A stretch of 64,000 nt of DNA from the NCBI GenBank assembly GCA_028818695.1, contig JAPPNK010000006.1, positions 12,955-76,954 on the forward strand, in the 5' to 3' direction. Positions 16,214-54,112 of the stretch are shown in pieces. Origin of the DNA: Candidatus Poribacteria bacterium. Its GTDB lineage: Bacteria; Poribacteria; WGA-4E; GCA-2687025. The notes under the pieces were generated by a model. It saw only the letters and a program-made list of their open reading frames with translations, searched no databases and was not told where the DNA came from. Position numbers and translations under genes: made by a program. Each line of letters starts with the position of its first letter. The stretch's first letter is position 1.

Positions 16214-18016
16214 ATGCGCAGCCGAACAAAATCAATTCTCGCTCTGATACCAGCCCTTGCGTTTCTCCTTGCAGCTCCTGTACATGCGGAACATGATTAC
16301 CGAAACCCTAGCGGGTGGGTTGACTGGCGAGGCACGGGCTTCCTCGTAGGTCCCGACCTTTTCATGACATGCAACCACCTCGGCAACATCAAAGGCGTCG
16401 CCATCTTCTTTGACAGCTGGATAGACGGCGTCAAACAGGACGACCATTACCGAGTGACCGTCGCCGAAGAGTTGTGGCGCGGGGGCGGCAAGGCTGACAT
16501 AGCGCTCTGGCGCGTATCCCCCATTGATAAGAAGCAGAGCCAGCATTACGGCAAACAGATCGGGGATGTCGTCGGCTTTTACGAGATAGACCTCCAGCCG
16601 CCGCCCGCAAAGGACGCTGCAGTCTTTTTCGGCGGAGGCTCCCACTACTCAGAACGGCATGGCAAAGTCCTGTGGACGAACGATCGGTATATCGTCCACA
16701 ACGCGCAAGGCAGCGGCGGCTTCTCTGGGTCGCCGACATTCGTTGACGGACGATCCGAAGTCGCAGGCGTGTGTGCCACGATTGTATTGGTCAACAATGT
16801 GTTCCGCGAGACCCACAGCGAACGCATCTCTTATGTTTGGGACGACATCAAACAGTTCTTTGTTACGCCGCCTGCCGAGCCTTCCATCAAGCTTGTTGAG
16901 GAACACGACTACCGAAACCCTAGCGGGTGGGTTGACTGGCGAGGCACTGGATTCCTCGTAGGCCCCGACCTTTTCATGACATGCGACCACCTCGGCAACA
17001 TCAAAGGCGTCGCCATCTTCTTTGACACCTGGGTAGATGGCGTCAAACAGGACGGCCATTACCGAGTGACCGTCGCCGAAGAGTTGTGGCGCGGGGGCGG
17101 CAAGGCTGACATAGCGCTCTGGCGCGTATCCCCCATTGATAAGAAGCAGAGCCAGCATTACGGCAAACAGATCGGGGATGTCGTCGGCTTTTACGAGATA
17201 GACCTCCAGCCGCCGCCCGCAAAGGACGCTGCAGTCTTTTTCGGCGGAGGCTCCCACTACTCAGAACGGCATGGCAAAGTCCTGTGGACGAACGATCGGT
17301 ATATCGTCCACAACGCGCAAGGCAGCGGCGGCTTCTCTGGGTCGCCGACATTCGTTGACGGACGATCCGAAGTCGCAGGCGTGTGTGCCACGATTGTATT
17401 GGTCAACAATGTGTTCCGCGAGACCCACAGCGAACGCATCTCTTATGTTTGGGACGACATCAAACAGTTCTTTGTTACGCCGCCTGCCGAGCCTTCCATC
17501 AAGCTTGTTGAGGAATGGCATGGGCGCAACCCCCTCACATTGAGCGGCGACGCTTCCATACAGGTGCGCGTCCCTCGTGTAAATCTAGATTATCTGCACT
17601 TTGTAGTTGCCGAAGACTCCGCGCTGACGGGCAAGGAGTTTGAGATCGACATCCCCTGGAACGCCGCCGCAACCGGCGATGCCTGGTGTAAATCTGTTGA
17701 CGGTCAGGACTGGAAGGAGATAAGCGTCGCCGCGGGCAACCCTATCGTTCTGCCATATGATGAGTTGACCTTCACGCGCGGACAATCGCATGTCTCTATA
17801 CAGATAAACATGCCTGAGATACGGGGCAAAGACCGCGCCGCAGATTGGGAGGAAGGCTCGTACAAAGACCGTCGCTTCTCAATTCGCACGCCTTACTTTG
17901 AGACGTTTCGCTACCGCTTCATCTTCATGGGGTTTGAGCGCGGGGATGTAAACCGAGACAGGTTCTTGTCGCCGCATGATGCGGAACATGTACCGTGGCG
18001 CGTTTGGTGGAGATAA
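16214..18016 (+). CDS. secreted protein with two near-identical trypsin-like domains
   Basis: A 600-residue exported protein: signal peptide with an AHA-like cleavage site near residue 25, two trypsin-like domains of 204 residues each (about 26-229 and 230-433), a beta-sandwich-like region (435-575) and the first half of a dockerin-like module (GDVNRDRFLSPHDA). Each protease copy has an apparent triad: histidine in TCNH or TCDH, aspartate in KADIALWRV and serine in GFSGSP. AACAGGAGGCATTAAA precedes the ATG. The two domains come from a 612-base tandem duplication; the differences all lie in the first 155 bases of the unit. The gene ends at an in-frame TAA in the middle of the dockerin-like module. 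Probably an extracellular protease once attached to a larger assembly. Confidence 0.8.
   Translation: MRSRTKSILALIPALAFLLAAPVHAEHDYRNPSGWVDWRGTGFLVGPDLFMTCNHLGNIKGVAIFFDSWIDGVKQDDHYRVTVAEELWRGGGKADIALWRVSPIDKKQSQHYGKQIGDVVGFYEIDLQPPPAKDAAVFFGGGSHYSERHGKVLWTNDRYIVHNAQGSGGFSGSPTFVDGRSEVAGVCATIVLVNNVFRETHSERISYVWDDIKQFFVTPPAEPSIKLVEEHDYRNPSGWVDWRGTGFLVGPDLFMTCDHLGNIKGVAIFFDTWVDGVKQDGHYRVTVAEELWRGGGKADIALWRVSPIDKKQSQHYGKQIGDVVGFYEIDLQPPPAKDAAVFFGGGSHYSERHGKVLWTNDRYIVHNAQGSGGFSGSPTFVDGRSEVAGVCATIVLVNNVFRETHSERISYVWDDIKQFFVTPPAEPSIKLVEEWHGRNPLTLSGDASIQVRVPRVNLDYLHFVVAEDSALTGKEFEIDIPWNAAATGDAWCKSVDGQDWKEISVAAGNPIVLPYDELTFTRGQSHVSIQINMPEIRGKDRAADWEEGSYKDRRFSIRTPYFETFRYRFIFMGFERGDVNRDRFLSPHDAEHVPWRVWWR
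16290..17513 (+). repeat. tandem 612-bp duplication inside the protease gene
   Basis: Unit one is 16290-16901 and unit two 16902-17513. I see about ten substitutions, all in the first 155 bases of the unit; the remaining ~455 bases are identical. The pattern fits a recent duplication or local gene conversion. Confidence 0.9.
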
Positions 18017-30765: not shown

Positions 30766-30881
30766 CGCCTGCGCCGATCTGGCATCCCTGATCGAATAGC
30801 GGCTCCCTCATTCCCGTCCGTCTTTCTGTGATTCCTGCCCATTTCTCCGTTTCTCCCCGTGATTCCCGCCCTTTTCTCCGT

Positions 30882-30903
30882 CATTCTCGCGCAAGCGGGA
30901 ATC
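30882..30903. repeat. dispersed palindromic repeat (CATTCCCGC...GCGGGAATC type)
   Basis: A hairpin with the sequence form CATTCTCGCGCAAGCGGGAATC. Related copies lie at 33642-33663 and 54091-54112, always between genes. This palindrome is widespread in many bacterial genomes. Confidence 0.75.
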
Positions 30904-33568: not shown

Positions 33569-33690
33569 CCATGCTTAAAGTTGGGACAGTTGAACGAATG
33601 ATCTCTCTATTTATGGGAAAAGGCGTCGCCAACCAGGCCGTCATTCCCGCGAAAGCGGGAATCCAGAGTCCAATCGACGACGTCCGCATT
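33569..33690 (+). repeat. dispersed intergenic repeat, copy 2
   Basis: Matches the 19144-19281 element almost base for base from ATGCTTAAAGTTGGGAC onward, and contains an intact palindrome (33642-33663). The remaining gap to 33862 holds a degenerate palindrome-like stretch near 33812 and no gene I can support. Confidence 0.8.
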
Positions 33691-43017: not shown

Positions 43018-44466
43018 ATGAGCGCGCCGCGCGTTCGATTCGCCCCCTCGCCGACAGGTTCGCTTCACATCGGAAGCGCCCGAACCGCCCTCTTCAACTG
43101 GCTCTACGCGAGGCGGCATGGCGGAACGTTCATCCTGCGCATCGACGACACAGACGCCGAACGCTCCACTGAAGAATCGACCAGCTCCATCTTCGAGTCG
43201 ATGAAATGGCTGGGTTTGGACTGGGACGAGGGACCTTACGCCCAATCGGACAGGCTTGAGCTTTATCAAGAGCGGGCGCGGCAGATGATCGAGAATGGCG
43301 CGGCGTATTTTTGTTACTGCTCAAAAGAGGAACTTGCCGCCAAACGCGAAGCCGCTCGAAAAGAAGGACGACCATACCGATACGACGGAACATGCCGCAA
43401 CCTGTCCGACAGCGAACGCAAGCGGTTAGACAGCGAAGGACGCCCAAAGGTCGCGCGGCTTAAAATCGAGCCTGACGAGAGCATCCTAACGCCGGACCTG
43501 ATCCTCGGCGACGTCGTCTTCGACTCCTCAACGCTGGACGATTTCATCTTCATGAAGCCCGACTTCACGCCGCTTTACAACTTCAGCTCCGCCGTCGACG
43601 ACGCCGATATGAACATCACGCATGTCATACGCGGGCAGGATCATCTGCCGAACACGCCGAAGCAGATACTCATCAGCAAGGCGCTTGGGATGGAGCCGCC
43701 AAAGTTTGCGCATCTTCCGATGGTGCATAACGCGCGCGGACAGAAGCTCAGCAAGCGGGACGGCGCCGTCGGAACGCTTGAATTTCGGGAGATGGGCTTT
43801 CTGCCTGAAGCGCTGGTGAACTATCTGGCGCGCCTTGCCTGGTCGGCGGAGGGCGAACAGGAGATCTTCACGACCGAGGAGCTGAAAGCGAAATTCGACC
43901 TGGACAGGGTCGGCAAAAGCCCCTCCCGCTTCGATCTGAAGAAGCTGACATGGCTGAACGGGCAGTATATGAACGAAAAGCCGCTGTCTGAGAAGACGGA
44001 GGGGGCGGCTCTTTTCTTGAATAAAGCCGGCTATGAACCTGAAAACGCCGAGCGCCTAGAGCGAATCGTTGAGGCGGTCGGCGACAGGCTCCACACCTGG
44101 CCGGACATCGTCACATACGGCTCCTATTTTTTTGAAGAGGACGGCGCATACGAGTTCGATCCTGCGGCGGTCAAAAAATGGTTTCGTTCAGAGGCGGAGC
44201 TGGAAACGGTTCGCGCCGCCGAATCTCTTATAGAGAGCATCGACCCGTTTGAGGTTGATGAGATCGACAAGCGGATGCGCGCCTGGGCGGAGGAGCGCGG
44301 CGAGAAGCTGATACGGGTTCTACAGCCGCTGCGCGTCGCCGTCACAGGCAAGCAGGTCGGTCCGAGCCTGCTTGAAACGCTGGAGATCTTAGGCAAAGAA
44401 TCGGTCTTGAACCGCTTGGAGCGCGCGTCAGAAGAGTTGCCGAAGATGTACGCGCAAAAGGGCTGA
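43018..44466 (+). CDS. gltX: glutamyl-tRNA synthetase
   Basis: A 482-residue class I aminoacyl-tRNA synthetase that charges tRNA-Glu (and possibly tRNA-Gln). The HIGH signature is HIGS at residues 17-20 and the KMSKS motif is KLSKR near 243-247. The anticodon-binding helical domain fills the C-terminal 160 residues. GAAAGGAG eight bases upstream fixes the ATG. The stop codon lies inside a hairpin that also acts as a terminator for the structured RNA coming from the other side. Confidence 0.96.
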   Translation: MSAPRVRFAPSPTGSLHIGSARTALFNWLYARRHGGTFILRIDDTDAERSTEESTSSIFESMKWLGLDWDEGPYAQSDRLELYQERARQMIENGAAYFCYCSKEELAAKREAARKEGRPYRYDGTCRNLSDSERKRLDSEGRPKVARLKIEPDESILTPDLILGDVVFDSSTLDDFIFMKPDFTPLYNFSSAVDDADMNITHVIRGQDHLPNTPKQILISKALGMEPPKFAHLPMVHNARGQKLSKRDGAVGTLEFREMGFLPEALVNYLARLAWSAEGEQEIFTTEELKAKFDLDRVGKSPSRFDLKKLTWLNGQYMNEKPLSEKTEGAALFLNKAGYEPENAERLERIVEAVGDRLHTWPDIVTYGSYFFEEDGAYEFDPAAVKKWFRSEAELETVRAAESLIESIDPFEVDEIDKRMRAWAEERGEKLIRVLQPLRVAVTGKQVGPSLLETLEILGKESVLNRLERASEELPKMYAQKG

Positions 44467-44481
44467 CGCTTCCGTCAACCC
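44456..44481 (-). terminator. terminator-like hairpin ending a minus-strand RNA
   Basis: Read on the minus strand, GGGTTGACG and CGTCAGCCC form a nine-pair stem (one G-U) closed by a GAAG loop and followed at once by TTTT. On the plus strand the same hairpin has no T run. It overlaps the gltX stop codon. Confidence 0.65.
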
Positions 44482-45056
44482 TATCGGAGTATCGTATCGG
44501 CTTACGGGGCGCCGAGGGGCGGCTTTCTCGCACTGCCGCCGCCTCGACCCGCGCCGTAATCTTTCGGCGAAACCGGTTGCCCGGCCGGGCGTCTCAAAGC
44601 GTCGCTGAAACGCGCCGCCGTTGGGCTTGCGCCGTCTCTCGGTCCCAAGCGCAAAGCCTTGGAAGCGAAGATCAGGCGCTGCCGCGCAGGCAGCTTGTTT
44701 CGGACATCTCCGAAACGACCCTGTGAAGAGGGCCCTCAACCGCTGACGCTCCGCCGCGGCGCGTCAGCTGGCTCGCTTGACGGGGCGAACCGATCGCGTC
44801 TTCGGTTCGCCTACCGTCCCAGATCAATCGGGCGGCTTGTCCGCGTCCGACGCAACAGATCGTTGGCAACAACCGCCTCGGAGTTCCGAGGCTCCCGTTC
44901 GGGTTGGCGCTGAGCCGCTCCGTCGCGCGTAGGAACGTTCAGCTCCGCGCCGGCAGGGAGTTCTTTCCGCCCTTGGCGGCTGCCCCGCTGACCTGCCCGC
45001 CGCGTCCGACTGGATCGTCGTCAAGCATCAATACAGGATACGAAGAGCGTATAGGG
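44456..45056 (-). ncRNA. candidate large structured RNA, class unknown
   Basis: About 600 bases without a credible reading frame but full of perfect hairpins. Paired segments (plus coordinates): 44513-44523/44535-44546, 44645-44649/44658-44662, 44678-44683/44689-44694, 44697-44704/44709-44716, 44742-44749/44761-44768, 44784-44793/44802-44811 (10 bp), 44875-44881/44886-44892 and 44967-44971/44975-44979. A long-range closing stem joins 44479-44484 with 45051-45056 and 44493-44498 with 45037-45042, with a symmetric 8 by 8 internal loop. Loops are purine-rich only when read on the minus strand (GATG, AACT, AAG, GAAG), and the terminator is on that strand too. I find no tmRNA, RNase P, SRP or 6S signature. 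No clean promoter was found; a lone TTGACA is at 45134 to 45129. 45057-45157 holds an A-loop hairpin at 45072-45090. Confidence 0.6.
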
Positions 45057-45083
45057 CGGGTTACAGGTTTCCGCATTTTTTTC
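45057..45083 (+). terminator. weak plus-strand terminator-like element
   Basis: A short GC stem (GCGGG with TCCGC) is followed by A and seven T. It could stop read-through from gltX before the paralogue operon. The stem is short, so support is modest. Confidence 0.35.
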
Positions 45084-45157: not shown

Positions 45158-45186
45158 TTGAGAGCTCAACGCGCGCCATGTAAAAT
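45158..45186 (+). promoter_or_regulatory. strong promoter of the four-paralogue operon
   Basis: TTGAGA (45158-45163), 17-base spacer and TAAAAT (45181-45186): five of six matches in each box. The first gene starts 41 bases downstream after a GGAGG. Confidence 0.7.
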
Positions 45187-45227: not shown

Positions 45228-47168
45228 ATGCGGCGGATATGGCGCCTGGCGTTGATCATCTGGACGCTGTTCTTGGCGCATGAAGTTGACGCTGTCAACG
45301 TATACGGCGATATAACGATGTGGGACGGCTTTAAAGACTATCCAGATACGGAGGGCGAGCGCGGATACGCGATACGGCGGTTCAAGATACAGAACCGGTC
45401 GACGGACAAAACCCGCCGCGTCACGCTGCGCCTGCCGTATGACAAGATGAGCGGAAAGCTCGCCGATGTCCGTCTTCACAGCATTTCGAAAACGATTGAA
45501 ATGGCGCCTTCCTCGATAGAATGCGTGACGCTGTTTCAGCCCGCTCTTCCGTTATACGGCGATGGGTGCGCCGTTTATATTGACGGAAAGCGGCAGCAAG
45601 AGCCTGTGGAACCGATCGCGCGGCTAGCCGACCATGGGACGGTTTTCAGCTCCGCTCCGTCATCCGCGGCAGGGTCTTTGATCGGATCGTCTGCGCCGTT
45701 TGAGCCGAAAATCTTCATGACCAATATCAATCTCAGATTCCATGAAGCGTATATGGGCGGTAAAGCGGCTGAGTTCCTTTCCCGCGCAGGCGCAAGCGGC
45801 GGCAAATCGTTCTCGACTCCGCAATTCATCAGCGCTAACGAGTTCGATATTCGATTCAGGAGAGCGTTTAAAGTCGACGAGACAGATGTCCGCCATTCCA
45901 ATCATTTCGGGCCGAGCTGGCTGAATTATTCTTCTGTCGAAGGCGTTGTCTATGACGATGGTTATGTAGCGTACATGACAGGGCCGGCGCGTCTCGCTCT
46001 GTGGCGGTATGTGGAATGCGGAGGGACGCTCACTTTCATTGCGATTCCGGATAAGGTGGAGGTGTACGATGGGACGTTAAGGTATAGTAGCAGGAAGCTG
46101 CTCAGCGAATGGGCGTCTTTAGACTCTCGACTGAAAAATCGACGCATCTATGAGGATACGTACGAGCGGTTCGATGTTGGCTTTGGCGTTTTTCACCTGG
46201 TCGGACAGAACAGCTTCGGTTCCGGCGATATTGCCGACACAGGCATTGCTATACCGGAAACATGGTATGAGGCGGAGCCAGCAAGGAATCAGCTTCACAC
46301 CGCATACGGAGCGAATCAGGTTCTGCCGATGGCGGAGCCTGTCGATTCGCGCGCTTCTTATCGGCGTTTCTTTTTTCTAATGCTCATCCTTGCCGTCCTG
46401 ATCGGACCCGCAAATCTATATTTGTTGAAACGCATAAAGCGGCGCGAGTGGGTTTATTGGACGACGCCCGCCGTGTCGATCTTGGCGTGCGGCGCGTTTG
46501 TGTTGTATGCGTCCGTTACGATCGGTTGGCGTCAACAGACGCGCGTCGTCAGCCTGACGCATTTAGACCAGCAAACTGGACGGGCGGCGACCATCGGATG
46601 GGCGGCGTACTACTCGCCCATGACGAGCGGGACCGAGCTGCGTTTTGACGAGAACACGGAGCTGACGCCCCTAGCCTTCGGCGAAAAGCTGGTCGGCTCT
46701 ATCGACTGGACGGACGGACAGCGGCTGACGGGCGGATGGCTTCCCGCGCGCATCTCTCGACACTTCAAACTGCGCAAGAATGAAGACCGCCCCGAACGCA
46801 TCGACCTCAAAAAGGAGGGCGGCGCTTTAAAAGTCATCAACCGCCTCGGCGCGCGCCTCAAAAGCTTCTGGTATGCCGACCATGACGGCAAGGTCTATCA
46901 AGCGTCCAAAGTTCCAAACGGCGCTGAATCCGTTTTAACCGAAACAAAGGGCGTAAAAATTGGCTTGAAAAAGCTGCGCGATGTGTACGTCTCTCAAGAC
47001 TGGGTCGCCGAGATCGAGGCGGTGAAGGCGTCGCCCGCGGCGTATCTTCAACCAGGGCAGTATTTCGCCGAGCTGGAAGAGAATGCGTTTGTGGAGAAGG
47101 CATTGAAGGGCGCGAAGGCGAAGCCGTCCATATCGCTTGTCATCGGACAGATGGAGGCGAAGAAATGA
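45228..47168 (+). CDS. membrane protein paralogue 1 of 4
   Basis: A 646-residue protein: signal peptide (about 1-22), an N-terminal beta-sandwich (25-130), a central alpha/beta domain with WLNYSSVEGVVYDDGY and LWRYVECGGTL (about 225-330) resembling a glutamine amidotransferase-like fold without an obvious catalytic triad, two membrane helices (about 380-430) around KRIKRREWVYWTTPAVS, and a C-terminal domain of about 215 residues. GGAGG lies 10 bases before the ATG. Similar proteins occur beside MoxR/DUF58/vWA clusters in related phyla, but none is seen here, so the role is open. The next gene overlaps by four bases (ATGA). Confidence 0.8.
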   Translation: MRRIWRLALIIWTLFLAHEVDAVNVYGDITMWDGFKDYPDTEGERGYAIRRFKIQNRSTDKTRRVTLRLPYDKMSGKLADVRLHSISKTIEMAPSSIECVTLFQPALPLYGDGCAVYIDGKRQQEPVEPIARLADHGTVFSSAPSSAAGSLIGSSAPFEPKIFMTNINLRFHEAYMGGKAAEFLSRAGASGGKSFSTPQFISANEFDIRFRRAFKVDETDVRHSNHFGPSWLNYSSVEGVVYDDGYVAYMTGPARLALWRYVECGGTLTFIAIPDKVEVYDGTLRYSSRKLLSEWASLDSRLKNRRIYEDTYERFDVGFGVFHLVGQNSFGSGDIADTGIAIPETWYEAEPARNQLHTAYGANQVLPMAEPVDSRASYRRFFFLMLILAVLIGPANLYLLKRIKRREWVYWTTPAVSILACGAFVLYASVTIGWRQQTRVVSLTHLDQQTGRAATIGWAAYYSPMTSGTELRFDENTELTPLAFGEKLVGSIDWTDGQRLTGGWLPARISRHFKLRKNEDRPERIDLKKEGGALKVINRLGARLKSFWYADHDGKVYQASKVPNGAESVLTETKGVKIGLKKLRDVYVSQDWVAEIEAVKASPAAYLQPGQYFAELEENAFVEKALKGAKAKPSISLVIGQMEAKK

Positions 47169-48979
47169 GGTTTGCGCGTGTCTTGTGCGCGGCGACGTTG
47201 TTCGGATACGCGCTGAGCGGATCAGCATCTTACCCTTTCGGTCAGAATTACGGCGACATCTCAATCGAAGTGAGGCGTTCTCTTATCGGAGCCAGCGGCT
47301 CTAAGATCCATGGCTACGCCGCTCTCCGCATTAAAGCGAGCAATCGCTCTCCCGACAAGGCGCATCGGGTCGAGATACGCTTCCCGTCCGAAGGCGCCAA
47401 CTCCTTCTGGGGGCCAGGGCGGCTCAAAAGCCTCTCCAAGACGATTGAGGTCGCTCCCGACTCAACCGCAGAAGCCTACTTCTATAAACCGTGGATACGT
47501 CTAGACGGCCGCGGCGAGGAAGCGATTGTGTATATTGACGGAAAGAAGCAGGCGCAGAATGTTCACGCGTTTGGCACAGGCTTACATGGGGCAAGCGGTT
47601 CGTTCGGCGGTCCGTTCGGCGGCGGGTCATGGGTTTACTCTTCAGCAGAGCCGACCGTGTCGTTTGGCGCGATTCGTAAGAGCAGTTTTCCCGTACCTTC
47701 CAAAATCAACACACGGACGCGCCATTCGTTTGATTCAACCTGGCTCGCTTATTCAGGTTACGACGGGATTATCCTGTCACTTTCCGAAGCCAATACGTTG
47801 AGCGCCGATGAACGCGCCGCCCTCTGGGAGTATGTCAAAGCCGGCGGATCGCTCGCCGTGATGGGATTAGGGCAACTATCCGATGATTGGGCGCGATTGG
47901 ACAGCCGTTTGGCGAATCGAGAACTTGTCAGCGACTCGTCTGAGCGGTATGAAATCGGGTTTGGGCTTCTTTTTTTGTCGGAGCCGCCGTTCTTCCCGAC
48001 CTCGTCTCGGCCCCCCGCGCATACAGCGATTTACGATTCATGGCTTGAAACGCAAGAACCCTGGCTGTTAATCTACACCGCGGCCGGCGCAAACAAAGTC
48101 TTTCCTGTCGCCAAGCCGGTCGACACCATGGCAAGTCTCCGCCGCATGTTTTTTCTGGCGCTTCTGTTTGCGGCGGTTATCGGTCCCTTGAACATCGCCG
48201 TTCTGCGGCGAAAGAAACAGATGATGCGCCTCTATTGGACGGCGCCCGCGATCTCCTTGACCGCATGTTTGCTGTTCGTTCTCTATTTCGCTGTCTTTGA
48301 AGGCGTAAGCAAGTATACGCGCGTCGCCAGCTTGACGATGATTGATCAGGAGTTGCGCTTGGCGACGACGATCGGTTGGATCGGCTTCTATTCGCCGACC
48401 GCGCATCCCGACGGGCTTCTCTTTGACGAAGTAACGGAGCTGACGCTGCAGGAGGAGGGCTTGCCCAGATTCAGCCCGCCAGCGATGGGTACGACGGTGG
48501 GCATGGACAGGGTAGGTTCCGTCGACTGGACAGACGGGCAGCGTTGGTCGGGCGGATGGATACAGCCGCGCATCCCGCTGCATTTCAAACTGCGTAAAAG
48601 CGAATCCCGCCCTGAACGCATGGACCTCAAAAAAGAGGACGGCGCCTTAAAGGTCGTCAACCGCCTCGGCTCCCGCGTCAAATCTCTCTGGTACGCCGAC
48701 CATGACGGCAAGGTTTATCAAGCGGCTGACATTTCTAACGGCTCCGAATCCGTTTTAACCGAAACAAACGACGTAAAGATTGGCTTGAAAAAGCTACGCG
48801 ATGTGTACGCCTCCCAAGACTGGGTCGCCAAGATCGAGGCGGTGAAGGCGTCGCCCGTGGCGTATCTTCAACCAGGGCAGTATTTCGCCGAGCTGGAAGA
48901 GAATGCGTTTGTGGAGAAGGCATTGAAGGGCGCTAAGATGAAGCCGTCCACATGCCTTGTGCTGGGCATCTTGGAGTAG
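47165..48979 (+). CDS. membrane protein paralogue 2 of 4, most divergent
   Basis: A 604-residue paralogue with the same layout: signal peptide (1-20), beta-sandwich, alpha/beta domain (WLAYSGYDGIILSLSEA, LWEYVKAGGSL), two membrane helices (LALLFAAVIGPLNIAVL and LTACLLFVLYFAVF) and C-terminal domain. Its membrane part and the start of its C-terminal domain differ clearly from the other three copies, but the last 150 residues (from HFKLRKSESRPERMDLKKE) are nearly the same. The ATG overlaps the preceding stop. The second membrane helix differs in sequence, suggesting a distinct role in a multi-subunit complex. Confidence 0.8.
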   Translation: MRFARVLCAATLFGYALSGSASYPFGQNYGDISIEVRRSLIGASGSKIHGYAALRIKASNRSPDKAHRVEIRFPSEGANSFWGPGRLKSLSKTIEVAPDSTAEAYFYKPWIRLDGRGEEAIVYIDGKKQAQNVHAFGTGLHGASGSFGGPFGGGSWVYSSAEPTVSFGAIRKSSFPVPSKINTRTRHSFDSTWLAYSGYDGIILSLSEANTLSADERAALWEYVKAGGSLAVMGLGQLSDDWARLDSRLANRELVSDSSERYEIGFGLLFLSEPPFFPTSSRPPAHTAIYDSWLETQEPWLLIYTAAGANKVFPVAKPVDTMASLRRMFFLALLFAAVIGPLNIAVLRRKKQMMRLYWTAPAISLTACLLFVLYFAVFEGVSKYTRVASLTMIDQELRLATTIGWIGFYSPTAHPDGLLFDEVTELTLQEEGLPRFSPPAMGTTVGMDRVGSVDWTDGQRWSGGWIQPRIPLHFKLRKSESRPERMDLKKEDGALKVVNRLGSRVKSLWYADHDGKVYQAADISNGSESVLTETNDVKIGLKKLRDVYASQDWVAKIEAVKASPVAYLQPGQYFAELEENAFVEKALKGAKMKPSTCLVLGILE

Positions 48980-48984
48980 ATGAA

Positions 48985-50907
48985 ATGAAGCATATGCGCG
49001 TTGCGTTGGCGTCGCTTTTTGCGTTGATTGCCGCGGATTTATCCGCCTCCCCGACCATTCGGAGGATCGGCGATATCGGGATCGTGACAAACTCGCGCTC
49101 CTCCACTCGAGACGCTTCGAGCGGCTATGCGATGCATCGCATTGAGCTCTGGAATAGCTCGTCCAGCGAAACGCATCAGGTTCATCTGCGCATTCCAGCA
49201 GAGCCGCGCGGTTTGCCTGGCGTCAACGTCTATCTTCACAGCGTCTCTAAGACGTTTGTAATTCAGCCTTCCTCTCGTATGGACGCGCTGATTCATCAAC
49301 CGCCTCTGCCGATGTACCTAGATCCGACGATCGCCGTCTCTATCAACGGAAAGCTGGAAGAGAGCGTTCATCTTCGTATGCCGAAGTCACATGCCGCCGC
49401 GGCGCCGACAGCGGTCCATCCCTCCTTCGTTTCTTATGCGTTTGAACCGCGCATCTCGATGAACGGATGGGTATGGACGTACGACAACATATATAGCGCC
49501 GTAAAGGGTGCCGTAGAGGATCAAGCGGGCAAGTTCGTCTCGTCCGCTTCTGCCGGCGGGAGATCTATTGCGCTTCCTAGGATCGTTGATGGCCCTCATT
49601 ATGACGGGTTGAGAAGCGCCTATTATACGATCCCGACGGATATTACGAGCGGTTTATTCAAAGAGAGCGGTTCCAAACCGATCTGGCTCAATTACACAAC
49701 ATTTGAAGGGGTCGTCTATAACGAGAAATACGCGGGGGATACAACGCCGGCGGGCAGGAACGCGCTCTGGCGGTATGTGGATTGCGGCGGTTCGCTCGCC
49801 TATTTCGGCAACGGAAAAATGCCGGCATGGTGGTCGGAGCTGGACCCGCGGCTGGCGGACAAGGATCTCAAACATGGCGCGTTTGAGAAGTATGAGATCG
49901 GGTTCGGCGCTCTCTATTTGGTCGGCATTGATGAAGAAGCGCTTGCGGCGTCAACCGGTTCTACGGAAACACATGAACTGCCAGACAGCGCCATCGACAT
50001 GGCTAGGTCATGGTATGAGACGGAGCCAGCAAGGAATCAGCTCCACACGGCATACGGAGCGAATCAGGTTCTTCCAATGGCGGAGCCGATCGATTCGCGC
50101 GCCTCTTATCAGCGCGTCTTTATTCTGATGCTCATCCTTGCCGTTCTGATCGGACCCGCAAATCTATGCTTGTTGAAACGCATGAAGCGGCGCGAGTGGG
50201 TTTATTGGACGACGCCCGCCGTGTCGATCTTGGCGTGCGGCGCGTTTGTGTTGTATGCGTCCGTTACGATCGGTTGGCGTCAACAGACGCGCGTCGTCAG
50301 CCTGACGCATTTAGACCAGCAAACTGGACGGGCGGCGACCATCGGCTGGACGGCGTACTACTCCCCCTTGAAAAATGTCGCCGAGCTGCGCTTTGACGAG
50401 AACACCGAGCTGACGCCCTTAGCCTTTGGCAGCGAGCTGGTCGGCTCCGTCGACTGGACAGACGGGCAGCGGCTGACGGGCGGATGGCTTCCCGCCCGCA
50501 TTCCCCGACACTTCAAGCTGCGCAAGAACGAAGACCGCCCTGAACACATTGAGCTCAAAAAAGAGGGCGGCGCTTTAAAAGTCGTCAACCGCCTCGGCGC
50601 GCGCCTCAAAAGCTTCTGGTATGCCAACCATGACGGCAAGGTCTATCAAGCGTCCAAAGTTTCAAACCGCGCCGAAGCCATATTAACCGAAACAAAAGGC
50701 GTAAAGATTGGATTGAAAAAGCTGCGCGATGTGTACGCCTCTCAAGACTGGGTCGCCAAGATCGAGGCGGTGAAGGCGTCGCCCGCGGCGTATCTCCAAC
50801 CAGGGCAGTATTTCGCCGAGCTGGAAGAGAACATGTTTGTGGAGAAGGCATTGAAGGGCGCGAAGGCGAAGCCGTCCACATGCCTTGTGTTGGGCATCTT
50901 GGAGTAG
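48985..50907 (+). CDS. membrane protein paralogue 3 of 4
   Basis: A 640-residue paralogue. The start ATG at 48985 (MKHMRVALASLF) follows GGAG by about nine bases and begins a clear signal peptide; upstream codons in frame are inside gene 2. The alpha/beta domain reads WLNYTTFEGVVYNEKY and LWRYVDCGGSLAYFG. The membrane and C-terminal parts from about residue 350 are almost identical at DNA level to copy 1. The leader TTGGAGTAGATGAAATGAAGCAT is repeated before copy 4, which shows that copies 3 and 4 arose by duplication of one unit. Confidence 0.8.
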   Translation: MKHMRVALASLFALIAADLSASPTIRRIGDIGIVTNSRSSTRDASSGYAMHRIELWNSSSSETHQVHLRIPAEPRGLPGVNVYLHSVSKTFVIQPSSRMDALIHQPPLPMYLDPTIAVSINGKLEESVHLRMPKSHAAAAPTAVHPSFVSYAFEPRISMNGWVWTYDNIYSAVKGAVEDQAGKFVSSASAGGRSIALPRIVDGPHYDGLRSAYYTIPTDITSGLFKESGSKPIWLNYTTFEGVVYNEKYAGDTTPAGRNALWRYVDCGGSLAYFGNGKMPAWWSELDPRLADKDLKHGAFEKYEIGFGALYLVGIDEEALAASTGSTETHELPDSAIDMARSWYETEPARNQLHTAYGANQVLPMAEPIDSRASYQRVFILMLILAVLIGPANLCLLKRMKRREWVYWTTPAVSILACGAFVLYASVTIGWRQQTRVVSLTHLDQQTGRAATIGWTAYYSPLKNVAELRFDENTELTPLAFGSELVGSVDWTDGQRLTGGWLPARIPRHFKLRKNEDRPEHIELKKEGGALKVVNRLGARLKSFWYANHDGKVYQASKVSNRAEAILTETKGVKIGLKKLRDVYASQDWVAKIEAVKASPAAYLQPGQYFAELEENMFVEKALKGAKAKPSTCLVLGILE

Positions 50908-50912
50908 ATGAA

Positions 50913-52817
50913 ATGAAGCATGCGCGCGTTGTGTTGGCGTCGCTCTTTGCGTTGATTGCCGCGGATTTATCCGCCTCCCCGACCTTTCAGGCGATCGGCG
51001 ATATCTGGATTGTGAGAAACCCGGGCCCCTACGCTCGAGACGCTTCGAGCGGCTATGCGACGCATCGCATTAAGATCTGGAATAGATCGTCCAGCGAAAC
51101 GCATCGGGTTCATCTGCGCATTCCAGCAGAGCCGCGCGGCTTGCCCGGCGTCAACGCCTATCTTCACAGCGTCTCTAAGACGTTTGTAATTCCGCCTTCC
51201 TCTAGTGTGGACGCGCTGATTCATCAACCGCCTCTGCCGGTGTACCGCGAGCCGACGATCGCCGTCTCTGTCATCGGAAAGCAGGAAAAAGGGCGCGTTC
51301 ATTTTCGCAGTATGGAGTATTTGCATGCTGCCGCCTTGCCGACAGCGGTTCATCCCTCTTTCGTCTCGTATGCGTTTGAACCGCGCGTCTTGATAAACGT
51401 ATGGAGGAACCACTACGCATATATCGTACTGGATCAAGCGGACAAGCTTATCTCGTCCGCTTCTGCCGGCAGCAGAAGCTCTATGGCACCTCCTAGGCCC
51501 GTCAATGGCAGCCACTACGACGGGTTGAGAAGAGCCTATTATACTACCCCGCCGGATGTAACAAGCGGTATTTTCAAAGGCAACGGTTCCAAACCGATCT
51601 GGCTCAATTACACAACATTTGAAGGGGTTGTCTATAGCGAAGAATACGCGCAGCATCTGACGCCGGCGGGCAGGAACGCGCTCTGGCGGTATGTGGATTG
51701 CGGCGGTTCGCTCGCCTATTTCGGCAACGGAAAAATGCCGGCATGGTGGTCGGAGCTGGACCCGCGGCTGGCGGACAAGGATCTCAAACATGGCGCGTTT
51801 GAGAAGTATGAGATCGGGTTCGGCTCTCTCTATTTAGTCGGCGAGGTAGATGCGCCCGCGGCGTCAACCGGTTCTACGGAAACGCATGAACTGCCAGACG
51901 GCGCCATCAACATCGCAAAGTCATGGTATGAGTCCGAACCGACGACAGCCCGACGCCACACAGCGCAAGGGGCGGCAGATATTCTTCCTCTAGGGAAACG
52001 GTTCAACTTTATCGCGTCTCTACAGCGCTTTTTTCTAATGGGGCTGCTTCTGGCCGTTCTGATTGGTCCAGCGCAGCTGTTCGTATTGAAACGCATCAAA
52101 CGGCGCGAATGGGTTTATTGGACGACGCCCGCCCTGTCGATCTTGGCGTGCGGCGCGTTTGTGTTGTATGCGTCCGTTACGATCGGTTGGCGTCAGCAGA
52201 CGCGCGTCGTTAGCCTGACGCATCTAGACCAGCAAACCGGGCGTGCGGCGACAATCGGATGGGCGGCGTACTACTCGCCCATGACGAGCGGGACTGAGCT
52301 GCGTTTTGACGAGAACACCGAGTTGACGCCTCTAGCATACGGCGATAAGCTGGTCGGCTCCATCGACTGGACAGACGGGCAGCTCCTCACCGGCGGATGG
52401 GTTCCCGCGCGCGTCCCCCGACACTTCAAGCTGCGCAAGAACGAAGACCGCCCTGAACGCATCGACCTCAAAAAAGAGGGCGGAGCCTTAAAGGTTATCA
52501 ACCGCCTTGGCGCGCGCGTCAAAAGCTTCTGGTACGCCGACCATGACGGCAAGGTCTATCAAGCGTCCAAAGTCTCAAACGGCTCCGAATCTGTTTTAAC
52601 CGAAACAAACGGCGTAAAGATTGGATTGAAAAAGCTGCGCGATGTGTACGCCTGCCAAGACTGGGTCGCTGAGATCGAGGCGGTGAAGGCGTCGCCCGCG
52701 GCGTATCTTCAACCTGGGCAGTATTTCGCCGAACTGAAAGAGAATGTGTTTGTGGAGAAGGCATTGGAGGAGGCTAAGGCGAAACCGTCCATATCGCTTG
52801 TCATCGGGAAGTTTTAA
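50913..52817 (+). CDS. membrane protein paralogue 4 of 4
   Basis: A 634-residue paralogue that starts MKHARVVLASLF at 50913. The N-terminal 120 residues are very close to copy 3, residues 130-200 diverge strongly, the WLNYTTFEGVVY to YEIGFG block is again nearly identical to copy 3, the segment before the first membrane helix is unique, and the C-terminal half matches copies 1 and 3. This block-wise mosaic is what repeated gene conversion would leave. It is the last of the array and is followed after 95 bases by the PH-cytochrome gene. Confidence 0.8.
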   Translation: MKHARVVLASLFALIAADLSASPTFQAIGDIWIVRNPGPYARDASSGYATHRIKIWNRSSSETHRVHLRIPAEPRGLPGVNAYLHSVSKTFVIPPSSSVDALIHQPPLPVYREPTIAVSVIGKQEKGRVHFRSMEYLHAAALPTAVHPSFVSYAFEPRVLINVWRNHYAYIVLDQADKLISSASAGSRSSMAPPRPVNGSHYDGLRRAYYTTPPDVTSGIFKGNGSKPIWLNYTTFEGVVYSEEYAQHLTPAGRNALWRYVDCGGSLAYFGNGKMPAWWSELDPRLADKDLKHGAFEKYEIGFGSLYLVGEVDAPAASTGSTETHELPDGAINIAKSWYESEPTTARRHTAQGAADILPLGKRFNFIASLQRFFLMGLLLAVLIGPAQLFVLKRIKRREWVYWTTPALSILACGAFVLYASVTIGWRQQTRVVSLTHLDQQTGRAATIGWAAYYSPMTSGTELRFDENTELTPLAYGDKLVGSIDWTDGQLLTGGWVPARVPRHFKLRKNEDRPERIDLKKEGGALKVINRLGARVKSFWYADHDGKVYQASKVSNGSESVLTETNGVKIGLKKLRDVYACQDWVAEIEAVKASPAAYLQPGQYFAELKENVFVEKALEEAKAKPSISLVIGKF

Positions 52818-54019: not shown

Positions 54020-54090
54020 CCCTTCGCGTCGGCGGTACACCCATGCGGGGATTTTCATTTTGACTCTAAAGCGTTCGCGTCGCCGGCAGT

Positions 54091-54112
54091 CATTCCCGCA
54101 TAAGCGGGAATC
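54091..54112. repeat. dispersed palindromic repeat, third copy
   Basis: CATTCCCGCATAAGCGGGAATC, the same palindrome as at 33642. Beside it, at 54143-54176, a C-run and G-run (CCCCCTAGCCCCCC...GGGGG) form another hairpin of a type found dispersed in many genomes. Confidence 0.75.

Follow-up and report, generated by a model that had tools for sequence, protein, structure and literature searches.

A candidate large structured minus-strand RNA between gltX and a membrane-protein operon in a Poribacteria genome

A non-coding stretch of 600 bases in a genome of the Poribacteria, a sponge-associated phylum, probably specifies a large structured RNA, read from the minus strand. The stretch lies in a 64 kb window, by which we mean the whole piece of DNA that was analysed (positions 12955-76954 of contig C28 in a genome of 3.57 Mb and 35 contigs); coordinates without a prefix refer to this window. 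The element has strong non-random structure, no coding signal and no known family, and it occurs as a single copy. We give a probability of roughly 0.55 to the reading that it is a single-copy, lineage-restricted large structured noncoding RNA (~600 nt), transcribed independently from the minus strand and probably acting in trans. As a single sequence without homologues, it is a lead for collecting relatives and not a discovery.

Genomic setting and coding potential

The original prediction of a non-coding region between gltX and an operon of paralogous genes was borne out. The element (44459-45056; Table 1) lies in the 761 bases that separate gltX, which ends at 44466, from the first paralogue gene at 45228. 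Long GC-rich gaps are places in which structured RNAs have been looked for (PMC8723152, PMC11109978); the GC content of the element is 66%, compared with 58% over the window and 44-61% in the other intergenic gaps. The gltX product shares 62-64% identity with those of Poribacteria relatives, the closest named one being that of Candidatus Poribacteria ARS61 (63%). The paralogue operon was not found in other members of the family to which this genome belongs; paralogues of its membrane proteins form a second cluster on contig C20 (at about 9-15 kb), and three other Poribacteria genomes contain more distant relatives of these proteins. The 64 kb window contains no tRNA.

That the element holds no credible protein frame, as had been proposed, agrees with its composition: the three codon positions hardly differ in GC (0.65/0.69/0.65), unlike those of gltX (0.61/0.42/0.73), and neither of its two longest ORFs has a Pfam match. 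A protein-coding or decayed gene is unlikely on both counts.

Strength, strand and architecture of the predicted fold

The minus-strand fold is considerably more stable than that of dinucleotide shuffles, with z scores of -4.6 (631 nt) and -5.5 (578 nt, 44479-45056), the latter stability being matched by none of 80 shuffles; the plus strand gives -2.6 and, for 44479-45056, -3.5. In the same test, the RNase P RNA of this genome scores -2.0 and its tmRNA -0.5. The element also holds the top-ranked 300-base folds of the 64 kb in a dinucleotide-corrected sliding-window scan. For comparison within the genome, 20 further stretches of 20 kb (400 kb) were sampled. Eight comparable or near-comparable segments of this sample were read, and each proved to consist of REP/MITE-type repeats, a tandem repeat, coding sequence or some mixture of these; set beside them, the element was the sole single-copy non-coding stretch of such extent seen. 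At least eight perfect hairpins had been predicted. An excess of stems is indeed present, but the number of perfect ones is smaller: with loops of 3-12 bases, four stems of at least 7 bp (0.7 expected) and six of at least 6 bp (1.7 expected) were counted, and the remaining local hairpins contain G-U pairs or mismatches.

Several kinds of palindromic repeat were recorded elsewhere in the genome. A REP-like palindrome, TCATTCCCGCGAAAGCGGGAATCCAG, lies at 33641-33668, 30881-30903 and 54090-54112 and is matched 33 times by BLAST across the window and the 400 kb sample together. A MITE-like family, ~150 bp in length, carries the REP palindrome centrally between inverted ends GTCTCTACAGGCGATGAT...ATCGTCGCCTATAGAGAC; at least eight long copies, 84-100% identical, occur in the part of the genome that was sampled (L200:3872-4041, L189:19443-19592, L184:16835-16984, L203:5178-5330, L197:3629-3767, L192:4715-4860, L192:5805-5907 and L191:6197-6340). 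The segment L185:13351-13650 consists of tandem repeats with GTGCAACGCAACGGATCTCGTGTTGCAC-type palindromes and folds strongly on both strands. Within the reading frame 16214-18016, an identical 30-base palindrome-containing segment recurs 612 bases apart (16671-16700 and 17283-17312), which suggests an internal duplication in that frame.

Both parts of the closing stem that had been proposed are present, CCCTAT (44479-44484) facing ATAGGG (45051-45056) and CGTATC (44493-44498) facing GATACG (45037-45042), and the stem was also recovered blind as an inverted repeat (I1) with two 20 nt arms. Two in-register 6 bp blocks in the end arms occurred in one of 5000 shuffles and in ten of 9058 segments of equal length from the window, frequencies that apply to ends picked post hoc. 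The duplex energy from end to end is ordinary, the only unusual property being the in-register two-block pattern, and each half of the stem has a probability of only 5-33% in the thermodynamic ensemble. The predicted nine-pair terminator hairpin of the minus strand exists (P 0.95), but with ten pairs including one U-G; the U-tract that follows is UUU, or UUUU if a pairing U is counted. This hairpin overlaps the gltX stop codon (44464-44466). Bases 44479-44482 are needed both for its stem and for the outer closing-stem block, and these structures would thus compete or alternate.

Table 1. Positions of the candidate element, its predicted parts and its neighbours
Feature	Positions	Strand	Remarks
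Whole element, candidate large structured RNA of ~600 nt	44459..45056	-	Fold z, 300 nt stability, GC
Closing stem, 5' half, two blocks	45037..45056	-	Inverted repeat I1
5' domain, predicted closed multibranch (model R2)	44844..45014	-	
Hairpin GCCTCGG-AACT-CCGAGGC	44875..44892	-	P 1.00; perfect 7 bp stem
Central array of local hairpins (model R1)	44629..44811	-	z -3.9 minus, -4.7 plus
10 bp hairpin GGCGAACCGA/TCGGTTCGCC	44784..44811	-	P 1.00; inverted repeat I7
8 bp hairpin GCTGACGC/GCGTCAGC with inner 3 bp stem	44742..44768	-	P 1.00
Hairpin GGCCCT/AGGGTC, one G-U	44717..44734	-	P 0.96
Hairpin GTTTCGGA-GATG-TCCGAAAC	44697..44716	-	P 0.97
3' domain (model R3)	44456..44628	-	
Closing stem, 3' half, two blocks	44479..44498	-	Inverted repeat I1
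3' end hairpin AGGGUUGACG-GAAG-CGUCAGCCCU, then UUU (44456-44458)	44459..44482	-	Intrinsic-terminator-like; P 0.95
gltX (glutamyl-tRNA synthetase)	43018..44466	+	Convergent to element
Operon of four paralogous membrane proteins	45228..52817	+	Divergent from element; no Pfam match
Sigma-70-like promoter TTGAGA-17-TAAAAT of paralogue operon	45158..45186	+	Outside element; consensus scan

Several features favour the minus strand as the probable one. Its fold is 15.8 kcal/mol better than that of the plus strand (p about 0.04), a bias resembling that of RNase P, and the end hairpin is oriented for it, the plus version having a C-A mismatch and lacking a T run. Purine-rich loops had been claimed for the minus strand only; the bias is there but modest, A making up 38% of the unpaired bases on the minus strand versus 24% on the plus strand (z about 1.9, p about 0.04 for the loop A-bias). 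For the central hairpins the two strands give equally good folds (z of -3.9 minus and -4.7 plus). Consensus scans of the minus strand found neither a promoter nor a terminator with five T, the U-tract of the end hairpin being too short for the latter, and inspection by eye found a TTGACA near 45134-45129 without a matching second hexamer. Because of the equal central folds and these two negative scans, we treat the strand assignment as probable. That the plus strand is folded as well (z -3.5) is expected of near-perfect DNA palindromes.

We infer the transcription, strand, ends and trans action of the element as follows. The transcript would start near 45060 on the minus strand and end, where gltX has its stop codon, with the hairpin 44482-44459 and the U-tract that follows. 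Three parts are predicted in its fold, a 5' domain in the form of a closed multibranch, a series of stable hairpins in the centre and a 3' domain, and the two-block closing stem would tie them together. Action in trans, as a scaffold for an RNP or an RNA-only assembly, appears most likely since only gltX, in antisense, lies downstream on the minus strand and nothing is there to be regulated in cis.

Searches for homologues and known RNA classes

BLAST of the element against 84 genomes of the phylum, none of the same genus, returned only the self-match, as did a covariance model of the central array run against 82 genomes of the class and models of the 5' and 3' domains run against 38 class genomes each. 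These models were built from a single sequence and may therefore miss strongly diverged copies. Weak covariance-model matches in four genomes (G001, G004, G005 and G035) had chance-level scores, lay in or overlapped long reading frames and were discarded. Among phages, plasmids and viral contigs only short chance matches were found. By eye, a 600-base gap downstream of gltX is absent from the three family members that have gltX (G002, G004 and G005), in each of which the next reading frame follows closely. The element is single-copy, and a REP or MITE copy is rejected because no part of it recurs in the genome.

A search of Rfam for a known class, as the original prediction had called for, left the window without a match at gathering thresholds, and a scan of the element against all families at E up to 10 yielded sub-threshold matches only; a known Rfam class is rejected. 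The best structured one among these, Termite-flg RNA (RF01729; minus strand, 44693-44795), is at chance level, scoring 24.9 bits where the gathering threshold is 40 and containing many non-standard pairs. The element has no match to the RNase P model and none to tmRNA by ARAGORN. A divergent form of either is rejected because both are found elsewhere in the genome with strong scores, RNase P at C21:200629-201027 and tmRNA at C26:70815-71170.

Competing readings and comparison with large bacterial RNAs

Given the abundance of palindromic REP and MITE copies in this genome, the element could be a structured relic, the now inactive remnant of a palindrome-rich insertion that was once mobile or selfish. 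Its restriction to this genome among the relatives searched, its GC content unlike that of the surroundings and the folding of both strands would fit such an origin. However, no part of it has a second copy in the genome, it lacks the REP core, its hairpins are intact and each different in sequence, and no target-site duplication is seen at its ends; we regard a relic as unlikely. Structure on both strands would also be compatible with a function on the plus strand, where the element, lying between the two genes, might be a long structured 3' UTR of gltX or a 5' leader of the paralogue operon involved in attenuation or decay control. This is less probable still, since the operon has a promoter-like site of its own (45158) downstream of the element, the plus fold is weaker than the minus fold and no such region accompanies gltX in the relatives.

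The near-perfect central hairpins, with their equal folding on the two strands, bring to mind instead a DNA-level element, that is, a cluster of palindromes between two transcription units serving as protein-binding sites or forming cruciforms. The palindromes share no common motif, unlike repeated binding sites, the full-length fold is better and the loops are A-rich on the minus strand, and a long-range closing stem is hard to account for in DNA; of the readings considered, this appears the least probable. We thus retain the independently transcribed minus-strand RNA as our preferred reading. More tentatively, and as a possibility that we would not favour, such an RNA may represent a new class of large ornate bacterial RNA that is confined to a single lineage of Poribacteria, has no relationship to OLE, ROOL or GOLLD and acts as a scaffold or an RNA-only assembly.

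The suggested resemblance to these three RNAs holds for size and heavy folding but for no feature that was tested. OLE RNA (RF01071), which has the membrane protein OapA among its binding partners (PMC12286853), is like the element chromosomal, about 600 nt long, rich in stems and not a same-strand leader; its model has no match in the element or the genome at E up to 10, but the control genomes of the genome search were equally silent, so that the sensitivity of that search is uncertain. ROOL (RF03087) and GOLLD are likewise large, highly folded and of unknown function. The ROOL model matched neither the element nor the genome, with control genomes again silent and the same doubt about sensitivity, and GOLLD gave no match in the scan of all Rfam families. 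Phages or prophages carry both of them, frequently close to tRNA islands (PMC12286853), a setting different from that of the element, the window of which is without tRNA. Class A RNase P RNA and tmRNA, both housekeeping RNAs, are similar to the element in being large and structured with joined ends. Besides ribosomal RNA, RNase P, tmRNA and introns, few bacterial RNAs of more than 500 nt are known, and three of these few form unusual RNA-only complexes (PMC12286853). A further class, from an uncultured phylum such as this one, would enlarge this small set.
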